Shown piece by piece: positions 17,823 through 56,189 of a stretch of DNA of 56,805 bases (position 1 is its first letter; each line of letters opens with the position of its first letter). Under the pieces are notes generated by a model that was given only the letters and a program-made list of their open reading frames with translations, was not told the DNA's origin and did no database searches. The stretch spans positions 1 to 56,805 of the forward strand of contig JAURZV010000051.1 in assembly GCA_030653175.1 (NCBI GenBank), read 5' to 3'. This DNA is from Methylobacter sp. (GTDB lineage Bacteria; Pseudomonadota; Gammaproteobacteria; Methylococcales; Methylomonadaceae). Position numbers and translations under genes: made by a program.

Positions 17823-20723
17823 TTATAAAGCCCGGATTTTACGTTGCTGTTCTTCAAGGTTGTTAAGCATTGAACGTAAATCAGCCAATTTGGCTTTTTC
17901 TTTATCAATAACTTCCGGCGGCGCTTTATCGACAAATGCCGGGTTATTTAACTTGCCTTCGACTCTGGGCAGGTCGTTATTGACTTTTTGTATTTCCTTT
18001 TCCAGCCTTATCAGTTCCGCTTCCTTGTCGATTAAGCCCGCCATGGGAATCAGGATTTTCATCTCGCCAACTAGTGCCATCGCCGATTCCGGTGCGACTT
18101 CAGTACTGTTTAGCCAGATTATCGATTCCAGCTTACCCATTTTTCGTAAATAAATCAGGTTGTTGTCCAGACTTTGTTGGTCAGCATACGAGCCGTTTTG
18201 CAGTAACACCGGCAGCGGTTTGCTCGGGGAGATATTCATTTCACCGCGAATACGGCGTACACCCAGGATAAAGCTCATTACCCAGTTGGTTTCGGCGATG
18301 GCCTTGCTGTCGATTTGCGCTTCATCCGCTACCGGATAAGGCTGCAACATGATGGTATTTGCCTGCGCCGCGCCAGCTCCCGGCTGGTGGCCTGCGGCAT
18401 ACACACCATCCCCGGCGATAATACCGGCTAGAGGTGCAACGCGCTGCCAGATCTCTTCGGTAATAAACGGCATGATCGGATGCGCCAAACGTAAAATCGA
18501 CTCCAGAACTGTCAGCAGGGTTTTGCGCGTGCCGCGCTGCAATGCCTTATCACCGGATTGCAGGGATATTTTTGCCAGCTCCAGATACCAATCGCAGTAT
18601 TCATTCCAGGTGAACTCGTAAATGGCTTGCGCCGCCAGGTCAAAACGGTAATTATCGATGGCGGTGGAGGTCGCAGCCGTTACCTGATGCAGACGGGAAG
18701 TAATCCAGCGATCCACTTGGCTGTATTTGCAAGGTGCGTCGGATAAACCGTTATCCTGTTCCTCTGTGTTCATCAGTACGAAACGTGCCGCATTCCAGAG
18801 TTTGTTGCAGAAATTGCGGTAACCTTCGGTGCGGGCAAGGTCGAAACGAATATCGCGACCTGTGGACGCTAATGAAGCAAAGGTAAAACGCAACGCATCG
18901 GTGCCGTAAGACTGAATGCCGTCCGGAAAATGTTTGCGCGTATCCTGCTCGATTTTTTTGGCTAAATGCGGCTGCATCATGCCGGAAATACGTTTTGCAA
19001 CCAAAGCTTCCAGTTCTATGCCGTCGATGATGTCGATCGGGTCGAGCACGTTGCCTTTGGATTTGGACATTTTTTGCCCTTCGGCATCCCGTACCAGGCC
19101 GTGGATGTAGACTTCCTTAAACGGCACGGCGCCCTGGAATTTCAGCCCCATCATAATCATCCTTGCCACCCAGAAGAAAATGATGTCAAAGCCGGTTACC
19201 AGTACGCTGGTTGGGTAATGCTTGGCCAATTCCGGGGTTTGTTCCGGCCAGTCCAGCGTGGAAAAAGGCCACAAGGCGGAAGAAAACCAGGTGTCCAGCA
19301 CATCTTCATCCTGTTTAAGCGCATAGTCGGCGGGCAGGTTGTGTTTTTCCCGGATGTCCTGCTCGGAGTTGCCGACGTAAATATTGCCCAGCTCATCATA
19401 CCAGGCCGGGATGCGGTGACCCCACCAGATTTGCCGGGATATGCACCAGTCCTGAATATTGCGCATCCAGTCGAAATAAGTGTTTTTCCAGTTGTCGGGC
19501 ACAAACTTGATGTCGCCGTTCTCAACGGCGGCAATCGCAGGTTCGGCCAGCGGCGCTACTTTCACATACCACTGGTCGGTCAACAGCGGTTCGATATCGC
19601 TGTTGGTGCGGTCGCCGCGCGGCACCATCAATTTGTGATCGGCGACTTTTTCCAGCAAACCTTTCGCATCGAGATCGGCAACAATCTGTTTGCGCGCTTC
19701 AAAGCGGTCAAGGCCTTGATATTGAACAGGGACTAACTCATCGGCACAAATGCTCGCGTCGACAGTTAAAATATTAATCAAGCCGCCATGCGGCAAATTC
19801 TGAATAACCGAAGTATGGCGGTGGCGCATCCAGACCTCGTAATCGTTAAAGTCATGGGCCGGGGTGATCTTGACGCAGCCGGTGCCGAACTCGGGATCGA
19901 CATACTCATCGGCAATAATCGGAATGCGGCGGCCGGTTAACGGCAATTCCACAAATTCACCGAGCAGATGTTTATAGCGCTCGTCGTTGGGATGTATCGC
20001 TACCGCGGCATCGCCGAGCATGGTTTCAGGACGCGTCGTGGCGACGATCAAATGCCCTTGACCATTCGACAGCGGATACCGCAAATGCCACATCGAACCG
20101 TTTTCTTCTTCCGACAACACTTCCAGATCGGAAACGGCGGTGTGCAGCACAGGATCCCAATTGACCAAGCGCTTGCCGCGATAAATCAGGCCTTCCTCAT
20201 ACAAGCGTATAAACACTTCCTGCACCGCATCGGACATGCCGTTATCCATCGTGAAGCGTTCCCTGTTCCAGTCCAGCGAAGAACCCATACGCCGCAATTG
20301 ACGGGTAATCGTGCCGCCGGATTCTTCCTTCCATTCCCAGATTTTTTCGATGAACTTTTCACGTCCATAATCATGGCGGGTAAGGCCTTCCGCATTGCAT
20401 AAACGTTCCACCACCATTTGCGTGGCAATGCCCGCATGGTCGGTGCCCGGCTGCCATAAGGTGCTGTAGCCTTTCATACGGTGATAGCGGGTAAGGGCAT
20501 CCATGATGGTAACCTGAAACGCATGGCCCATGTGCAAACTGCCGGTAACGTTGGGCGGCGGAATCATGATGCAATAGGACTCGCCCTCCGGCTTGGCCGC
20601 CGCCGAACCTGCTCCCGGCAGGTTTCCGGCATACACACCATCCCTGGCGATAAAATAGCCTTTTTCTTCCCAGGTTTGATACCAGCGTTGTTCAATTGAA
20701 TGCGGGGCGTATGTTTTTTCCAT
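17823..20723 (-). CDS. valS: Valyl-tRNA synthetase, with two repeat-derived inserts
   Basis: Charges tRNA-Val with valine; class I synthetase with editing domain. HMGH is at residues 64-67 ([10 protein letters not shown]) and KMSKS near 554; a C-terminal coiled coil closes the protein. At 966 residues it is somewhat longer than E. coli ValS. The excess is largely two inserts sharing a GDGVYA-like start and a PGAG core: residues about 27-47, just before [12 protein letters not shown], and about 766-789, before NTIMLQPYP. Both are encoded by related DNA (20590-20655 and 18355-18425). The order valS, holC, pepA is the usual one, here with a toxin-antitoxin pair between valS and holC. Confidence 0.97.
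18355..18425. repeat. Repeat inside valS, copy 2
   Basis: Plus-strand core: GCTCCCGGCTGGTGGCCTGC then GGCATACACACCATCCCCGG. It resembles the copy at 20590-20655. In frame within valS (residues about 766-789). Confidence 0.7.
20590..20655. repeat. Repeat inside valS, copy 1
   Basis: Plus-strand core: CCTGCTCCCGGCAGGTTTCC then GGCATACACACCATCCCTGG. CCTGC and GCAGG form a small stem. In frame within valS (residues about 27-47), in a region where E. coli ValS has only a short linker. Confidence 0.7.
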
Positions 20724-23675: not shown

Positions 23676-24344
23676 ATGACCTGTATTTGTGTAATTTTTG
23701 ATTTGGACGGTACGCTTGTAGATAGCGAGGGACTTTGCAATCAAGCGTTTCTCGATCTGCTTCCGCAGCTGAGTGATACGGTGGAGTCATTGATCCAGCG
23801 GTATCGTGGCAAAAAGTTGGCTCCAATCCTTGCTGATCTTGAGAAACGTCTTTGCCAGAATCTGCCAGATGCGTTTGAACAGCATTATCGCCAGCATGTT
23901 GCGGAGCTCTTTTCTCGTGAGTTGAAACCTATGCCCGGCGTTCTTGAAATGCTCGAAGCCACGAACTTTCCCATGTGCATTGCTTCAAGCGGGCCTCCCT
24001 TGAAAATCCATCAGGCGCTGCAAGTTAGCGGCCTCGCGGCTTACTTTGGTGACAATATCTTCAGTTCATATGAAGTTGGCTCTTGGAAGCCGGAACCGGA
24101 TCTATTCCAATACGCAGCAAATACGATGGGCTTTATGCCTAGTCAATGCGCGGTTGTAGAAGATAGTGAGGTTGGGATTGAGGCAGCCGCAGCAGCGGGA
24201 ATGAAAGCATTCCAGTATGTGCGAAATGGTGAAATCTCATCATGCCGAGCCAGAAACGGAGTACCATTTGACGATATGTCGCAGCTTCCAAAATTGCTCG
24301 CTCATTTCGCTAGTAATGCCCAACACATCGTTCCAGTCCATTAG
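23676..24344 (+). CDS. HAD-superfamily phosphatase (YieH/beta-phosphoglucomutase-like)
   Basis: A 222-residue HAD subfamily IA hydrolase. Motif I FDLDGTLVDS is at residues 8-17, motif II IASSG near 105, the lysine in WKPEPDLF near 144 and motif III VVEDSEVGIEAA near 163. It probably dephosphorylates a small sugar phosphate or nucleotide in the cytoplasm; the substrate is unknown. Its TAG stop codon is the first triplet of a repeat element (24342-24459). It is the first gene of the block separating pepA from lptF. Confidence 0.85.
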   Translation: MTCICVIFDLDGTLVDSEGLCNQAFLDLLPQLSDTVESLIQRYRGKKLAPILADLEKRLCQNLPDAFEQHYRQHVAELFSRELKPMPGVLEMLEATNFPMCIASSGPPLKIHQALQVSGLAAYFGDNIFSSYEVGSWKPEPDLFQYAANTMGFMPSQCAVVEDSEVGIEAAAAAGMKAFQYVRNGEISSCRARNGVPFDDMSQLPKLLAHFASNAQHIVPVH

Positions 24345-24459
24345 GCCGGAATAAGACCATCCAAGCGCTTAGCGTGAGGCGGCGTTTCCGGCAGATTCGC
24401 TCAGTGTTCGCCGGAAACACCTATTTTAGCTATCGCTCAAACAGGCTATTTTGGCCTAC
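24342..24459. repeat. MITE-like element, left of brnTA
   Basis: Starts TAGGCCGGAATAAG and ends with a degenerate inverted end (GGCTATTTTGGCCTAC). Its interior includes GTTTCCGGCAGATTCGCTCA and the partly complementary GTTCGCCGGAAACACC. It matches the reverse complement of 25055-25195 along most of its length. It overlaps the stop codon of the HAD gene. Confidence 0.75.
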
Positions 24460-24852: not shown

Positions 24853-25078
24853 ACCTTTGGGTGATGTTAAGGTGATTGCAGATTTTTTACCATCGCCTGC
24901 TGAGCTGGCTTTTAATGAAGAAGGCGTTAAGGTTACGTTGGCGCTGAGTAAAAAAAGCATAGAGTTTTTTAAGTCTGAGGCGGCTAAAAACCATACCCAA
25001 TATCAACGTATGATCCGCCGCTTACTTGATGCTTACGTCGATTCACATAGTCAAGTAGGCCGGAATAAGCCTGTTTGA
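24824..25078 (+). CDS. brnA: BrnA-family antitoxin
   Basis: An 84-residue antitoxin. The ATG at 24824 (MNAKIKYTNEPLG) has AAGGAAGG upstream and is preferred over an earlier frame opening at 24788. The C-terminal half (VTLALSKKSIEFFKSEAAK, then YQRMIRRLLDAYV) is the ribbon-helix-helix DNA-binding part typical of BrnA. The last residues (VGRNKPV) and the stop are encoded by the repeat element beginning at 25055, so the original C-terminus has probably been replaced or extended. Confidence 0.88.
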   Translation: MNAKIKYTNEPLGDVKVIADFLPSPAELAFNEEGVKVTLALSKKSIEFFKSEAAKNHTQYQRMIRRLLDAYVDSHSQVGRNKPV

Positions 25079-25195
25079 GCGGCAGCGAAAAGAGGTGTTT
25101 CCGGCGAACACTCTGCGAATCTGCCGGAAACGCTACCTCGCGCTACACCCTTCGACAAGCTCAGGACAGGCTTGGGTAGTCTTATTTCGGCCTAC
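25055..25195. repeat. MITE-like element, right of brnTA
   Basis: Starts GTAGGCCGGAATAAG and ends CTTATTTCGGCCTAC, so it has inverted ends. It is an inverted copy of 24342-24459, with an extra CCTTCGACAAGCTCAGGACAG segment near the right end. It forms the 3' ends of both brnA (plus strand) and arnD (minus strand, TAG stop at 25192-25194). Confidence 0.8.
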
Positions 25196-39777: not shown

Positions 39778-40781
39778 TTGATTATCAACCTTTATACAAT
39801 ACACTGATCAATGCAAAGGCCGATGCTTGGGCAAAGATACTGCCGCAGCAGCTTGAACGGGGTTTTGATCAAGCCAAACATGGCGATTTAGCGCAGTGGC
39901 AGGCGCTGGTCGACAGCGTCCCGCACTTGCCCACCACACAACGAGTGCTGGATGCCGATGCGGTGCAAATAGGCAGTGCTGATGATTTGGTCGAAGAGCA
40001 TTGTAGGGGCGACTTTAGTCGCCCAGGGCGAATGAATTCGCCCCTACAAAGCCAATTAAAAGCACTGCATCCCTGGCGTAAAGGCCCCTACAACTTATTC
40101 GGCATCAACATAGATACCGAATGGCGATCAGACTGGAAGTGGAACCGTCTAAAAGACCATATCGCGCCGTTAGAGCATCGCCTGGTATTGGATGTAGGTT
40201 GCGGCAACGGCTACCATTGTTGGCGTATGCTGGGAGCCGGAGCAAAAACAGTGGTCGGCATCGACCCCATGTTACTCAATGTGATGCAGTTTCAGCTGGT
40301 TAGAAAACTGTATGGCGAGGCGCCGGTTTACGTCTTGCCGATAGGCATAGAAGAGTTGCCTTACGGCCTCAAGGCATTCGATACGGTATTTTCGATGGGG
40401 GTGCTGTACCATCGCCGTTCGCCTATCGATCATCTAATGGAATTAAGAGACTGCCTGCAACCCGGCGGCGAACTGGTATTGGAAACCCTGATTATCGATG
40501 GCGGCTTAGGTCAGGTATTACTGCCGGAAGACCGTTACGCCAGAATGCGCAACGTTTGGTTCCTTCCCAGTTGCGACACCCTGATCAGCTGGTTAAAGCG
40601 TTGCGGATTTAAAAATATCCGTTTGGTTGATGTTACCGTAACCAGCATTGAAGAACAGCGAACTACAGAATGGATGACTTTTCATTCGTTGAAAGATTTT
40701 CTGGATGCGGAAAATCCGCAACTGACTTGCGAAGGCTTGCCGGCTCCGAAACGGGCAATTGTTATTGCGAATGTGGCGTAG
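39774..40781 (+). CDS. cmoB: tRNA U34 carboxymethyltransferase CmoB, with repeat-derived insert
   Basis: Transfers the carboxymethyl group of carboxy-SAM to 5-hydroxyuridine at position 34 of certain tRNAs. 335 residues, about 12 more than E. coli CmoB. The SAM fold shows VLDVGCGNGYHCWRM near residue 140, and FSMGVLYHRRSP and RNVWFLPS follow. Residues about 77-92 (CRGDFSRPGRMNSPLQ) are encoded by a 49-bp palindromic REP (40001-40049), inserted in frame just before the conserved PWRKGPYNLFG. The TAG stop codon is also part of a repeat (40778 onward). Confidence 0.94.
   Translation: MIDYQPLYNTLINAKADAWAKILPQQLERGFDQAKHGDLAQWQALVDSVPHLPTTQRVLDADAVQIGSADDLVEEHCRGDFSRPGRMNSPLQSQLKALHPWRKGPYNLFGINIDTEWRSDWKWNRLKDHIAPLEHRLVLDVGCGNGYHCWRMLGAGAKTVVGIDPMLLNVMQFQLVRKLYGEAPVYVLPIGIEELPYGLKAFDTVFSMGVLYHRRSPIDHLMELRDCLQPGGELVLETLIIDGGLGQVLLPEDRYARMRNVWFLPSCDTLISWLKRCGFKNIRLVDVTVTSIEEQRTTEWMTFHSLKDFLDAENPQLTCEGLPAPKRAIVIANVA
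40001..40049. repeat. REP palindrome inside cmoB
   Basis: TTGTAGGGGCGA at the left is the exact reverse complement of TCGCCCCTACAA at the right. Between them are two small stems (GGGCGACTTTAGTCGCCC and GGGCGAATGAATTCGCCC). Same family as 817-844 and 38972-38995. Length and phase keep cmoB open. Confidence 0.85.
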
Positions 40782-40850
40782 GCCGGAATAAGGCCATCCA
40801 AGCGCGTAGCGCGAGGTGGCGTTTCCGGCGAATCAGGGTGGTGCTACAGA
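40778..40850. repeat. Partial copy of the GTAGGCCGGAATAAG element
   Basis: GTAGGCCGGAATAAGGCCAT then CCAAGCGCG, with GTTTCCGGCGAATC, matches the left half of the element at 24342-24459. The TAG at 40779-40781 is the cmoB stop codon. Confidence 0.7.
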
Positions 40851-40853
40851 GTT

Positions 40854-40896
40854 GGAGTGCAGGCTTCGCCTGCCTTGCAAGCAAAGCTTGCACTCC
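40854..40896. repeat. REP flanking the RAYT gene, left copy
   Basis: GGAGTGCAGGCTTCGCCTGC then CTTGCAAGCAAAGCTTGCAC and TCC. It forms two hairpins and an outer GGAGTGCA/TGCACTCC pair. The same sequence lies in inverted orientation at 41480-41521 on the other side of the RAYT gene. Confidence 0.8.
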
Positions 40897-40906
40897 CGCC
40901 GTTTAT

Positions 40907-41441
40907 TTAAAAGTCGTCTTCGGTCAGAATTAAGGATTGGTATTTCGGGTTATTGCTAAATTGCCGCCGCAAGTTTTCTCGGCCAACTTTTTCTATGTGC
41001 TGATGAAAACTGGAAAAAGGATAATCAGCCAGATTTTTCGTATAGCCATGTTTTACCGGATTGTTCAGCAAATAGTTAAGGTGAATTAAATAATCGTTTT
41101 CATCACGCGGACAATAATCCCAGTAATTCCACCATGCCGGTAAATTAGAGGGATAGGTTTTTCTGATTAACTGCCCCGATTGATAATGCACCCGACCTAT
41201 GATTTTCGGCAAATCTTCGCCTTTATGACTAAACGCTATCAGGTGGTAGTGATTATTCAACACCACCCAATGTTCCAGCGTCCAGAAAAATTCAGTAAAC
41301 GTTTGTTGCAACAAGGCGGTCAACTGTTCTTTAAGTTGATCGTTTAATAGGTGGCGTTTTAGATAAATACTGCCGGTTATAAAAGTAACTGGTATTATCT
41401 AGCAGAAGGTGTGCGGGGCGATGCTTATAGCGTTTTAACAT
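40907..41441 (-). pseudogene. REP-associated tyrosine transposase (RAYT), frameshifted
   Basis: An HUH single-strand transposase of the IS200-like Y1/TnpA_REP group. The front part (MLKRYKHRPAHLLLDNTSYF from 41441) is followed, after a +1 base at a run of four A's near 41381-41384 (plus strand), by ITGSIYLKRHLLNDQLKEQ and the catalytic LNNHYHLI (His-x-His) in the next frame. The C-terminal YLLNNPVKHGY is intact. Removing one base would restore about 177 residues. It lies between cmoB and ubiC with REP copies on both sides. Either it is a decayed gene or the base is a sequencing error. Confidence 0.85.
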
Positions 41442-41479
41442 AGTCAGCTCGTAAGGTGTATTAATGTACGAAGCGCGGT

Positions 41480-41521
41480 GGAGTGCAAGCTTTGCTTGCA
41501 AGGCAGGCGAAGCCTGCACTC
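41480..41521. repeat. REP flanking the RAYT gene, right copy
   Basis: GGAGTGCAAGCTTTGCTTGC then AAGGCAGGCGAAGCCTGCAC: the inverted copy of 40854-40896. It lies between the RAYT start and the ubiC end. Confidence 0.8.
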
Positions 41522-48989: not shown

Positions 48990-49454
48990 TTTTGCACCTC
49001 TCTTTGTATGAAAAAACGAAGTAATTATTCACCACGAAGGACACGAATTAGCGCGTGTGCCGGAAAAGCTTCCGCTCCTGCTCACGCCCCTTACCTACAT
49101 CCATGTAGGCAACGCCCGTTCTTGCCGGCGCTCGAACAGGCTTATTCCGGCCTACAGAATTTAATTATTGAAACACCACCACCACCGCCGCGCTGATGAC
49201 CGCCGCACTATCAAGCGGAACGGGGTTTGCAACCCCGCTCCTAACGTTTCTGCAATTTCTAAGCAAAGTGGTTGAACTTAATCAACGCAAAACGTTTCGG
49301 ACGGGGCAACATGCCCCGTCCGGCTTGCAAACACGAATTAGCGCGTGTGCCGGAAAAGCTTCCGCTCCTGCTCACGCCCCTTACCTACATCCATGTAGGC
49401 AACGCCCGTTCTTGCCGGCGCTCGAACAGGCTTATTCCGGCCTACAGAATTTAA
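48990..49454. other. Repeat-filled gap between ubiB and thioredoxin-like gene
   Basis: No gene. Contains two direct copies of a segment of about 120 bp (about 49043-49165 and 49333-49464). Between them are two short palindromes: GGAACGGGGTTTGCAACCCC (near 49217) and GGACGGGGCAACATGCCCCG (near 49299). Open frames across the copies give near-identical peptides but have no gene-like features. Confidence 0.65.
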
Positions 49455-49464
49455 TTATTGAAAC
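49043..49464. repeat. Direct repeat that includes the ubiB 3' end
   Basis: Both copies read CACGAATTAGCGCGTGTGCC, continue identically through GCTTATTCCGGCCTACAG and on to AATTTAATTATTGAAACA. The second copy runs into the real ubiB end; the first continues into a diverged copy of the last ubiB codons (CCGCCGCGCTGATGACCGCC). The right part of each is the inverted form of the GTAGGCCGGAATAAG element. Confidence 0.75.
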
Positions 49465-51005
49465 AACACCGCCGCACTGATGACTGCCGCGCTGATCAGC
49501 ATAGCCCAGACCGTTCTGCGATGATTGTTATCCATTTGTTCGCGCAGCAGCATTAATTCCCTGTTTTGTATTTCGACATGCTGCTTTGCGTGAGCGGCAT
49601 TGTCCAGCGCTTTATAAATCAAAGAGGGGATTTCGGGGAATTGCTGGGCAAAGTCGGGAAACTGTTTGATGAGTTTGTCGATTTTGGCTTTAGGGCCGAT
49701 GCGCTCATGAAACCATTTTTCAAGGAAAGGTTTGGCGGTTTGCCATAAATCCAGGTCAGGGTAAAGTTGTCGCCCCAAGCCCTCGATATTGAGCAGGGTT
49801 TTTTGCAGCAAGACCAGCTGAGGTTGAACGTGCATATCGAAACGCCGCGCAGTCTGGAATAAACGCAACAGCAATTGACCGAAGGAAATGTCTTTTAACG
49901 GCTTTTCAAAAATCGGCTCGCAAACGGTGCGTATTGCGGATTCAAATTCTTCTATCCGGGTCGATTCGGAAACCCAGCCGGATTCGACATGCATCTCGGC
50001 CACTTTGCGATAGTCGCGATTGAAAAAAGCCAGAAAGTTTTCCGCCAGGTAGTGCTGGTCTGATAATGACAGGGTGCCGACGATACCAAAATCGACAGCG
50101 ATATATTTGGCCGGCAGATCGACGAAAATATTGCCGGGATGCATGTCGGCATGGAAAAAATTATCCCTGAACACCTGGGTGAAAAAGATTTCCACGCCGC
50201 GTTCGGCGAGCAATTTAAAATCGGCGCCGCCTTCTCTAAGCTGGTCGATGTTACCTACCGGTATGCCGTGAATCCTTTCCATGACCAGAACTTTCCGGCG
50301 CGTTAGCGGCCAGTGAATCTCCGGGATGTAGATGATGTCGGAATTCTCGAAGTTGCGGCGCAATTTGGAGGCATTGGCGGCCTCCCTGACCAGATCGAGT
50401 TCATCCAGCGTGGTTCTTTCAAATTCGGCAACGACATCGATAGGGCGTAATCTTCTTGCGTCGGCCCAGAAGCGCTCGGCAAAACGGGCCAGTTCGTAGA
50501 GCAGCCCTATATCCGAGCGTATGCGACTTTCTATGTCGGGACGCAGTACTTTAACCACAACGCTTTCTCCGCTGTGCAAGACGGCGGTATGAACCTGTGC
50601 GACTGACGCCGAGGCCAGCGGTTCGGCATCAAACTCGGCAAACGCGTCGCTGATAGACATGCCCAGTTCTTTTTCAATAATGCTGCGCGCAAGTTCGTTG
50701 GCAAAAGGCGGAACCCGGTCCTGTAGTTTGATCAGTTCATCGGCGATGTCATCGGGCAACAGATCTCTTCGGGTAGATAAGGCCTGGCCGAATTTGACAT
50801 AAATAGGGCCCAAATCTTCCAGTGCGCGCCGGATTCTGACACCGCGAGAGTCTGATGAGTTTCTGAGCCAGAAGTTGGGGGAGAAAACCGCTAAATAACG
50901 GACAGGTCGGAATAAATGGGTTTTTAAAACGATTTCGTCCAGGCCGTGAAAGACCAGAACCCAGTTAATATGGATCAGACGCAATAATAATTTAGGGCGG
51001 ATCAC
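49455..51005 (-). CDS. ubiB: Ubiquinone biosynthesis kinase-like protein UbiB
   Basis: An atypical ADCK/ABC1 kinase needed for ubiquinone synthesis, membrane-bound. 516 residues from a GTG start. The family motifs are the KxGQ segment [16 protein letters not shown], the Ala-rich loop ASASVAQVH and the metal-binding VDFG. A hydrophobic C-terminal segment ([16 protein letters not shown]) anchors it. It is separated from ubiJ by the small DUF1640 gene. Confidence 0.95.

Positions 51006-56009: not shown

Positions 56010-56085
<76 letters not shown>

Positions 56086-56113: not shown

Positions 56114-56189
<76 letters not shown>

Follow-up and report, generated by a model that had tools for sequence, protein, structure and literature searches.

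Palindromic elements that sit in frame within genes have been known chiefly from Rickettsia, an obligate intracellular group that is difficult to work with, and, to our knowledge, how these Rickettsia palindromic elements (RPEs) move has stayed open. According to the sections of two reports that are drawn upon here, RPEs are dispersed stem-loop repeats, present in intergenic DNA as well as in frame within many conserved protein genes (PMC2229807, PMC10969869), with a length of 105-146 bp and 12-bp terminal inverted repeats in one account (PMC2229807) and of about 150 bp in the other (PMC10969869). In the main text of PMC3733652, as far as it is cited here, most repetitive extragenic palindromes (REPs) are intergenic, 20-40 bp long and tagged with GTAG or CGTC at one end. 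The GTAG/CGTC REPs of Opitutus terrae and R. conorii (RPE-4 and RPE-6) are described there as short stem-loops, some of them inside open reading frames (ORFs), over half of the latter forming dimers or groups; the intragenic ones hit replication/repair and tRNA synthetase genes too, and Methylobacter is absent from that main text (PMC3733652). REPs have also been linked to REP-associated tyrosine transposases (RAYTs) in the part of PMC3116915 referred to here. We analysed a 56,805-nucleotide stretch of Methylobacter sp. DNA (contig JAURZV010000051.1 of assembly GCA_030653175.1; the window), in which valS, encoding valyl-tRNA synthetase, carries two in-frame inserts. Both are very probably copies of one 51-bp mobile DNA element that is non-autonomous, translated, selfish and near-neutral to its host and that also grows into arrays.

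The valS product exceeded the cut-offs of two NCBIfam valine-tRNA ligase models (1288 and 1172 bits). The insert bounds were set by alignment with relatives free of inserts, which bore out two related in-frame inserts, as proposed in the initial annotation from the sequence alone, and identified them as copies of a dispersed element (Table 1). Their location had been given correctly, as residues 27-47 and 766-789, with exact bounds that were a few residues off. The coordinates of copy 1 are those of a 78.3-bit match to the covariance model of the element (R1). The junction at site 1 reads TTT/GCG GCC at codon level in relatives, and the empty allele of site 2 reads ATT/NNN in others. Copy 2 has an extra codon that was probably added in the window genome, as the closest row of the alignment (G012) keeps the 51-nt form. 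In the Thermus ValS structure (1gax), gaps were observed at site 1, and the alignment does not reach site 2. A placement of both inserts in surface loops, which the initial annotation had proposed to check, found only partial support: insert 2 coincides with a low-confidence segment (769-788) between better-predicted stretches of a ValS model with a mean pLDDT of 57.5, which is informative at insert 2 only and says nothing on insert 1.

Table 1 Features of valS and its two inserts in the window.
Feature	Position	Strand	Size and residues	Basis or remark
valS (valyl-tRNA synthetase)	17823..20723	-	966 aa	ORF; host gene of both inserts
Element copy 1	20601..20651	-	51 nt, in frame; residues 25-41 (17 aa)	Empty relatives and covariance model
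Element copy 2	18366..18419	-	54 nt (51 + one extra codon), in frame; residues 769-786 (18 aa)	Empty relatives
Left target dinucleotide TT of copy 1	20652..20653	-		Gene sequence; in empty same-genus alleles, one exception with TTC
Left target dinucleotide TT of copy 2	18420..18421	-		Gene sequence; in most empty alleles

Occupancy at the same site differs between species. The ValS alignment comprised 30 rows, 21 from the same genus, two from elsewhere in the family (G023 and G024) and seven from the same order. Site 1 was filled in 10 of the 21 same-genus rows, seven with one unit (shortened to 48 nt in one of them), two with two and one with three, and was empty in 11. Site 2 was filled in seven of the 21, one holding three units and one an added partial unit; a remnant was observed in one more (G010), and the site was also filled in G023, which belongs to another genus. 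Neither insert was present in G024 or in any of the seven same-order rows. The closest row, G012 (97%), is without insert 1, and in G009 and G019 a further unit stands at site 1 to the left of a unit resembling the window's own. The expectation that relatives would lack the inserts was thus confirmed by empty sites within the genus, and so was its counterpart, that distant ValS would be free of them (0 of the seven same-order rows filled).

The DNA core common to both inserts, noticed in the initial annotation, proved real and above chance: in the own genome, which comprises 4.0 Mb in 109 contigs, blastn with window positions 18355-18600 as query yielded 49 matches at E ≤ 0.001, the query's place among them. 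A profile was then run on the window and 33 own-genome stretches, in which copies had been located with the valS copy as query, and gave 55 matches at E ≤ 0.001, two of which (L028:3401 and L033:1621) belong to a related type. The matches fall in 43 places, and 12 of these places are tandem. The core recurs both in and between genes, as anticipated. An exact pattern scan located its 21 bases in at least 111 stretches of named genomes, a choice that inflates conservation at unit positions 4-24; among the matches listed, 80 stretches, were Methylobacter species, Methyloglobulus morosus, and Methylovulum and Methylococcaceae bins. By blastn the element was present in at least 24 of 41 genomes, namely in all 23 of the own genus and in one of two from other genera of the family, and was not found in the 16 same-order genomes beyond the family, within the limits of first-look candidates and limited scoring. 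The covariance model placed it in at least 38 of 151 genomes of the order, spread over 18 of 44 genera; six of the 38 belong to the order beyond the family, and matches in these were weak, one or two per genome. Both genome counts rest on first-look candidates and limited scoring and are lower bounds. The element occurs throughout the genus Methylobacter genomes searched and in other genera of the family. Carriage by phages was rejected on the basis of an exact pattern scan of a viral contig collection, which returned no match.

The ends of the element were defined from 252 units in 180 unique arrays, of which 173 have a length that is a multiple of three. The unit has 51 nt, from ATCGCC to GCG, with the consensus ATCGCCAGGGATGGTGTGTATGCC-GCAAGCCNGYCGGGARCNGGCGCGGCG; array lengths, here and for the sister family below, were extended to the model ends, and the exact value of 51 rests on empty-site junctions and tandem periods. 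Flanks were analysed for matches up to E 1e-6, with six arrays of identical left flank set aside. On the left, T occupies position -1 in 98% and A or T position -2 in 96% of 173 arrays, and on the right G occupies +4 in 80% of 157; counting one array per cluster gave T at -1 in 66 of 68 and G at +4 in 52 of 64. This target motif was seen in all six orientation and frame classes, 13 arrays outside ORFs among them. A relative provided a gap-free junction for 55 of the 180 arrays, four of which still show unit sequence. The 33 distinct empty alleles, those four included, carry T at -1 in 28 cases, A or T at -2 in 28 and G at +4 in 29, suggesting that the motif mostly precedes insertion. In ValS itself the units are flanked by TTT/GCGGCC-like sequence at site 1 and ATT/NNNGCN-like sequence at site 2, with no duplication at the codon-level junctions. 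As shown by comparison with empty alleles, insertion is precise, without duplication or loss of target sequence, between a YTWT-like left and an NNNGCC-like right flank that empty relatives already have.

A sister 51-nt family, family B (GACTGCCAGGGATGGCGGAAGTGTCGCAATCGGTAGGGAACCGATGCGACC), gave matches in 22 of the 23 genus genomes; the own genome has 35, and none of them falls within the window. Among its 29 unique arrays at the fetched loci, whose ends rest on the model and not on empty-site comparison, 27 lie in ORFs of at least 150 aa, all 29 have C at -1, and a few are composites with a nested element; its consensus has a stop in one frame. A third related element (TGACCTCCATGGATGGAGGAAATGCCG and the like) is nested in family B copies at four places in M. 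tundripaludum SV96 (L234, L236, L237 and L238), where the longest ORF over it runs in the opposite direction in three and in the same direction in one. In both families the right flank resembles the element's own start (AWNGCC against ATCGCC in the element; commonest bases GACTGCC against GACTGCC in family B). This, together with the head-to-tail arrays of the element, would suit a site-specific (tyrosine) recombinase moving the element from a 51-bp circle, with ATCGCC/NNNGCC as the crossover region. This alternative, which concerns the enzyme step only, is regarded as unlikely: the T at -1 (C in family B) is nearly fixed though it lies outside the shared stretch, some right flanks of family B may be decayed units, and no circle, recombinase or paired inverted core sites turned up, although no search was aimed at them.

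Tandem arrays show a polarity. The leftmost unit was better conserved in 32 and the rightmost in seven of 58 tandem arrays, with 19 ties (p = 7e-5); the own-genome tandem arrays gave six, none and six, respectively, and unit scores pointed the same way (leftmost 39, rightmost 18, one tie). A usually fresher unit on the T side is expected if the YTWT/ATCGCC of a resident copy rebuilds a near-best target. Adjacent units were barely more alike than random ones (0.854 versus 0.818; 71 pairs). These data bear on the alternative that there is little or no present-day insertion, that the element spread between species mainly by whole-gene recombination, and that the pattern reflects loss by precise deletion. 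In its favour, several species have units at the same ValS sites, similar ones in some cases, and slippage could remove tandem units; against it, rightmost units are more decayed than leftmost ones, units of one array often differ in their hairpin, and a related element nests in sister-family copies, so that we consider it improbable, somewhat more so than the recombinase. At L015:3293-3319 and L039:1024-1050, a GTAGGGGCGACCGGCCGGTCGCCC palindrome cuts the second tandem unit short some 27 nt in, which looks as though a REP had inserted there. REP-like palindromes sharing TAGGCCGGAATAAG were also observed in the window, at 24342-24447, 25055-25155, 40778-40829 and 49041-49473, the last with two 143-nt direct copies at 49041 and 49331.

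Each unit folds as CGCCA-GGGA-TGGTG followed by GCCGC-AA-GCCNGY-CGGGA-RCNGGC-GCGGC, giving two hairpins with GGGA in both loops; the unit ends are not paired with each other. A DDE-type miniature inverted-repeat transposable element was rejected, given that no terminal inverted repeats pair and no target duplication exists at the junctions. For the pair statistics, 220 units were kept after dropping gapped or short ones, 189 of them distinct, of which 80 were aligned. In these 80, 95.8% of pair cells are standard compared to 87.2% after shuffling, 11 of 16 pairs show changes on both sides (124 such cells versus 40.0 in shuffles), and pair 32-42 occurs in all four Watson-Crick types. The covariation score of 0.308 (0.146 shuffled) was reached in none of 500 shuffles, and no slid version came close. 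The hairpins, as this comparison shows, are kept by compensatory change. Folded as single-stranded DNA, copy 1 beats all 200 shuffles on both strands (z -3.4 sense, -3.6 opposite). G.T-type pairs outnumber A.C mismatches on the element strand (253 versus 53 cells; 97 versus 52 without pair 4-15), which hints that this is the strand that folds.

The same excess, together with GGGA in both loops, could also be read at the RNA level, with hairpins kept because the transcript binds an RNA-binding protein and copies tuning mRNA fate; hairpin 1, CCAGGGAUGG, resembles the CsrA/RsmA site, CARGGAUG. This is very unlikely, as copies are antisense as often as sense (74 versus 74) and lie within translated regions, where ribosomes would unfold the hairpins, and occupancy varies among near relatives. 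A known RNA was rejected, the two tRNAs being the only Rfam hits at gathering score over the whole window; two identical tRNA genes lie at 56010-56085 and 56114-56189, their starts 104 nt apart.

Gene context was assessed for 170 arrays, ten near a stretch end being omitted. A gene call of at least 150 aa holds 155 of them and 15 lie outside; 148, evenly split between the two orientations (74 each), are inside an ORF of at least 150 aa that the array simply lengthens. Random positions were genic at a comparable rate (761 of 875), and genes are therefore not avoided by the element. To characterise the hosts, 20 own-genome ORFs and valS were scanned, from 36 ORF-borne own-genome arrays. Hosts over curated cut-offs include the DNA polymerase III beta clamp, dihydropteroate synthase, two dihydrolipoyl dehydrogenases, DapC, EpmA, adenylylsulfate kinase and L-threonylcarbamoyladenylate synthase, and five of the 20 ORFs matched no family at E 1e-25. 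One beta clamp gene contains two separate copies (L038:1047-1099 and 1207-1258), and the two dihydrolipoyl dehydrogenase genes of one genome (L016 and L034) each carry a copy, with similar right-hand flanks.

Host genes stay readable, given that 51 is a multiple of three and that the unit consensus is open in all six frames, although such openness by itself is weak evidence. Frame use is stronger evidence and departs from what the target motif predicts, with same-strand phases 0/1/2 at 68/0/6 (43.1/8.7/24.0 expected) and opposite-strand phases at 36/5/33 (39.7/15.0/17.5 expected), and the departure holds when each of the 69 clusters, of which 62 lie in ORFs, is represented by a single array (chi-square p = 8e-5). 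Peptides from the depleted frames contain much Cys, Trp and Arg or much His and Pro. Translation combined with purifying selection would be expected to leave such a departure, which does not amount to proof; the insert peptide is probably translated, adding 17 residues per copy, with harmful frames purged by selection. Linker expansions evolved in place for ValS function can practically be dismissed: a like peptide does recur in frame in many proteins and its frame is over-represented (68 versus 43.1 expected), but orientation and covariation reject a protein-level repeat, as 74 of the 148 intact genic arrays are opposite in orientation with unrelated peptides, unrelated genes are hit and changes preserve base pairing. 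A named protein domain was rejected as well, the six-frame consensus peptides remaining below every NCBIfam/Pfam cut-off (best choice_anch_X, 22.1 bits versus 25), as was a solved structure holding the peptide, for which two of the six frames were tried and gave only weak matches (E 0.011 and above) to a designed protein and FlgG.

In the reading that we favour, the mobile element inserts precisely between YTWT-like and NNNGCC-like flanks, and each translated copy would add 17 residues, frames harmful to the host being purged. A new copy would tend to land in front of the old one, YTWT plus ATCGCC itself being a good target, and head-to-tail arrays of 51n bp would result. Recognition by a trans-acting protein, perhaps in single-stranded DNA, may be the reason why the hairpins persist. 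The most fitting view of the element is that of selfish DNA whose length and open frames make it nearly neutral, the new peptide segments of conserved proteins being a side effect. As for the moving enzyme, a HUH/Y1 transposase of the IS200/IS605-RAYT kind may be the best candidate class, a tentative guess made because precise insertion beside a short motif without duplication and conserved hairpins match such systems.

Several observations weigh against this picture. No mobilising gene was found; Y1 transposase matches exist in all 23 genus genomes, independently of repeat number (one Y1 match versus 29 repeat matches in G011, one versus one in G004), and none of ten Y1 loci examined carries a copy of the element. 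With regard to the enzyme step, a right-side target motif is unusual for HUH/Y1 systems. Judged by local GC skew, the 136 arrays assessed do not clearly favour one replication strand (Wilcoxon p 0.03, sign test p 0.35). The opposite strand of copy 1 folds as well as its sense strand (z -3.6 and -3.4), and copy 2, with its extra codon, folds no better than shuffles (z -1.45 sense, -0.33 opposite; 20 of 200 as good). Having all six frames open is in itself nothing rare, as 11.8% of shuffled consensuses and 110 of 189 units do, and the frame expectation uses the motif of the same arrays, with one chi-square cell expecting only 3.6. Seven of the 170 arrays lie in a gene call whose ORF changes otherwise than by lengthening; in five of these the array length is not divisible by three, and the one in the own genome is at the 3' end of its ORF. 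Some arrays look duplicated, as 24% of the 71 adjacent pairs are at least 96% alike versus 2.3% of random pairs. Orthologous arrays with one versus many copies left the direction of growth unclear (right 34, left 29, middle 16, tie 14), many of these pairs being valS and not independent.

The window has a Y1 (PF01797) transposase match of its own at 41129-41359, within a region (40855-41521) with two short minus-strand ORFs; it is flanked by 42-nt perfectly complementary inverted repeats and resembles a Y1 element with terminal inverted repeats that has decayed.

A bolder possibility is that the family is tuned to live inside protein genes, gene-friendliness itself being a selected trait of the transposon. 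Two sister families of different sequence both have 51-nt (17-codon) units with mostly stop-free frames, and the element's own end rebuilds its target, giving 17-residue steps, from none to three at ValS site 1. Three genomes of another genus in the family contain 90-119 model matches each at E ≤ 0.01 (L205-L231), two-hairpin relatives of 48-50 nt. Fifteen of these were examined, and only three lie in an ORF of at least 100 aa, compared to 27 of 29 for family B, and 11 have a length that is not a multiple of three, their lengths being those of model matches and not of empty-site inserts. They often have like flanks and are perhaps part of a longer repeat. We consider this proposal possible but doubtful, a little more so than the transposase class suggested above.

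The present element is compact and abundant in methanotrophs, including the named strain M. tundripaludum SV96. Because its ends, target motif, structure, empty sites and array polarity are defined and its occupancy varies, both the mechanism of movement and the tolerance of proteins for inserted peptides become directly testable. The element also matters to annotation, where the additional peptides of ValS, DnaN and other proteins have the appearance of mobile DNA and not of functional insertions. No description of the element was found among open-licence papers judged by title and start of abstract.

Cyanobacterial small dispersed repeats (SDRs) are likewise very small mobile repeats, a likeness drawn from their description and not from sequence. 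REPINs are inverted REP pairs, which the element is not. IS200/IS605 elements insert next to a short motif without duplicating the target, and the element resembles their non-autonomous forms in its hairpins, in its insertion beside a short motif (the T at -1 and A or T at -2 described above) and in the lack of duplication; it differs in also preferring the right-side motif NNNGCC. No autonomous element with the same ends was noticed in the fetched stretches, in which no search was aimed at one. With REPs, as portrayed in the cited part of PMC3733652, the element shares short stem-loops inside ORFs, grouping and a tRNA synthetase gene among its hosts, and it differs in having no GTAG/CGTC in the consensus of 80 units, in its 51 bp, in lying mostly in ORFs (155 of 170) and in arrays that are all head to tail; some units and family B do have GTAG, in the loop of hairpin 2 and not at its foot.

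The likeness to RPEs put forward in the initial annotation holds in kind, the element being hairpin-forming, dispersed and in frame in unrelated conserved genes (ValS, DnaN, dihydropteroate synthase, DapC, EpmA and dihydrolipoyl dehydrogenase), and fails for size and architecture, with two internal hairpins in 51 bp compared to the long stem formed by terminal repeats in RPEs, as these appear in the sections cited. The comparison with RPEs was made at the level of peptide families and not of DNA, and the six-frame consensus peptides reach no NCBIfam/Pfam cut-off. Further differences are a defined target motif, head-to-tail 51n arrays and a gammaproteobacterial methanotroph family as host, which is free-living. 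In behaviour the element is akin to RPEs and to intragenic REPs; its size and its tag or ends set it apart from both, and its gene preference sets it apart from REPs.

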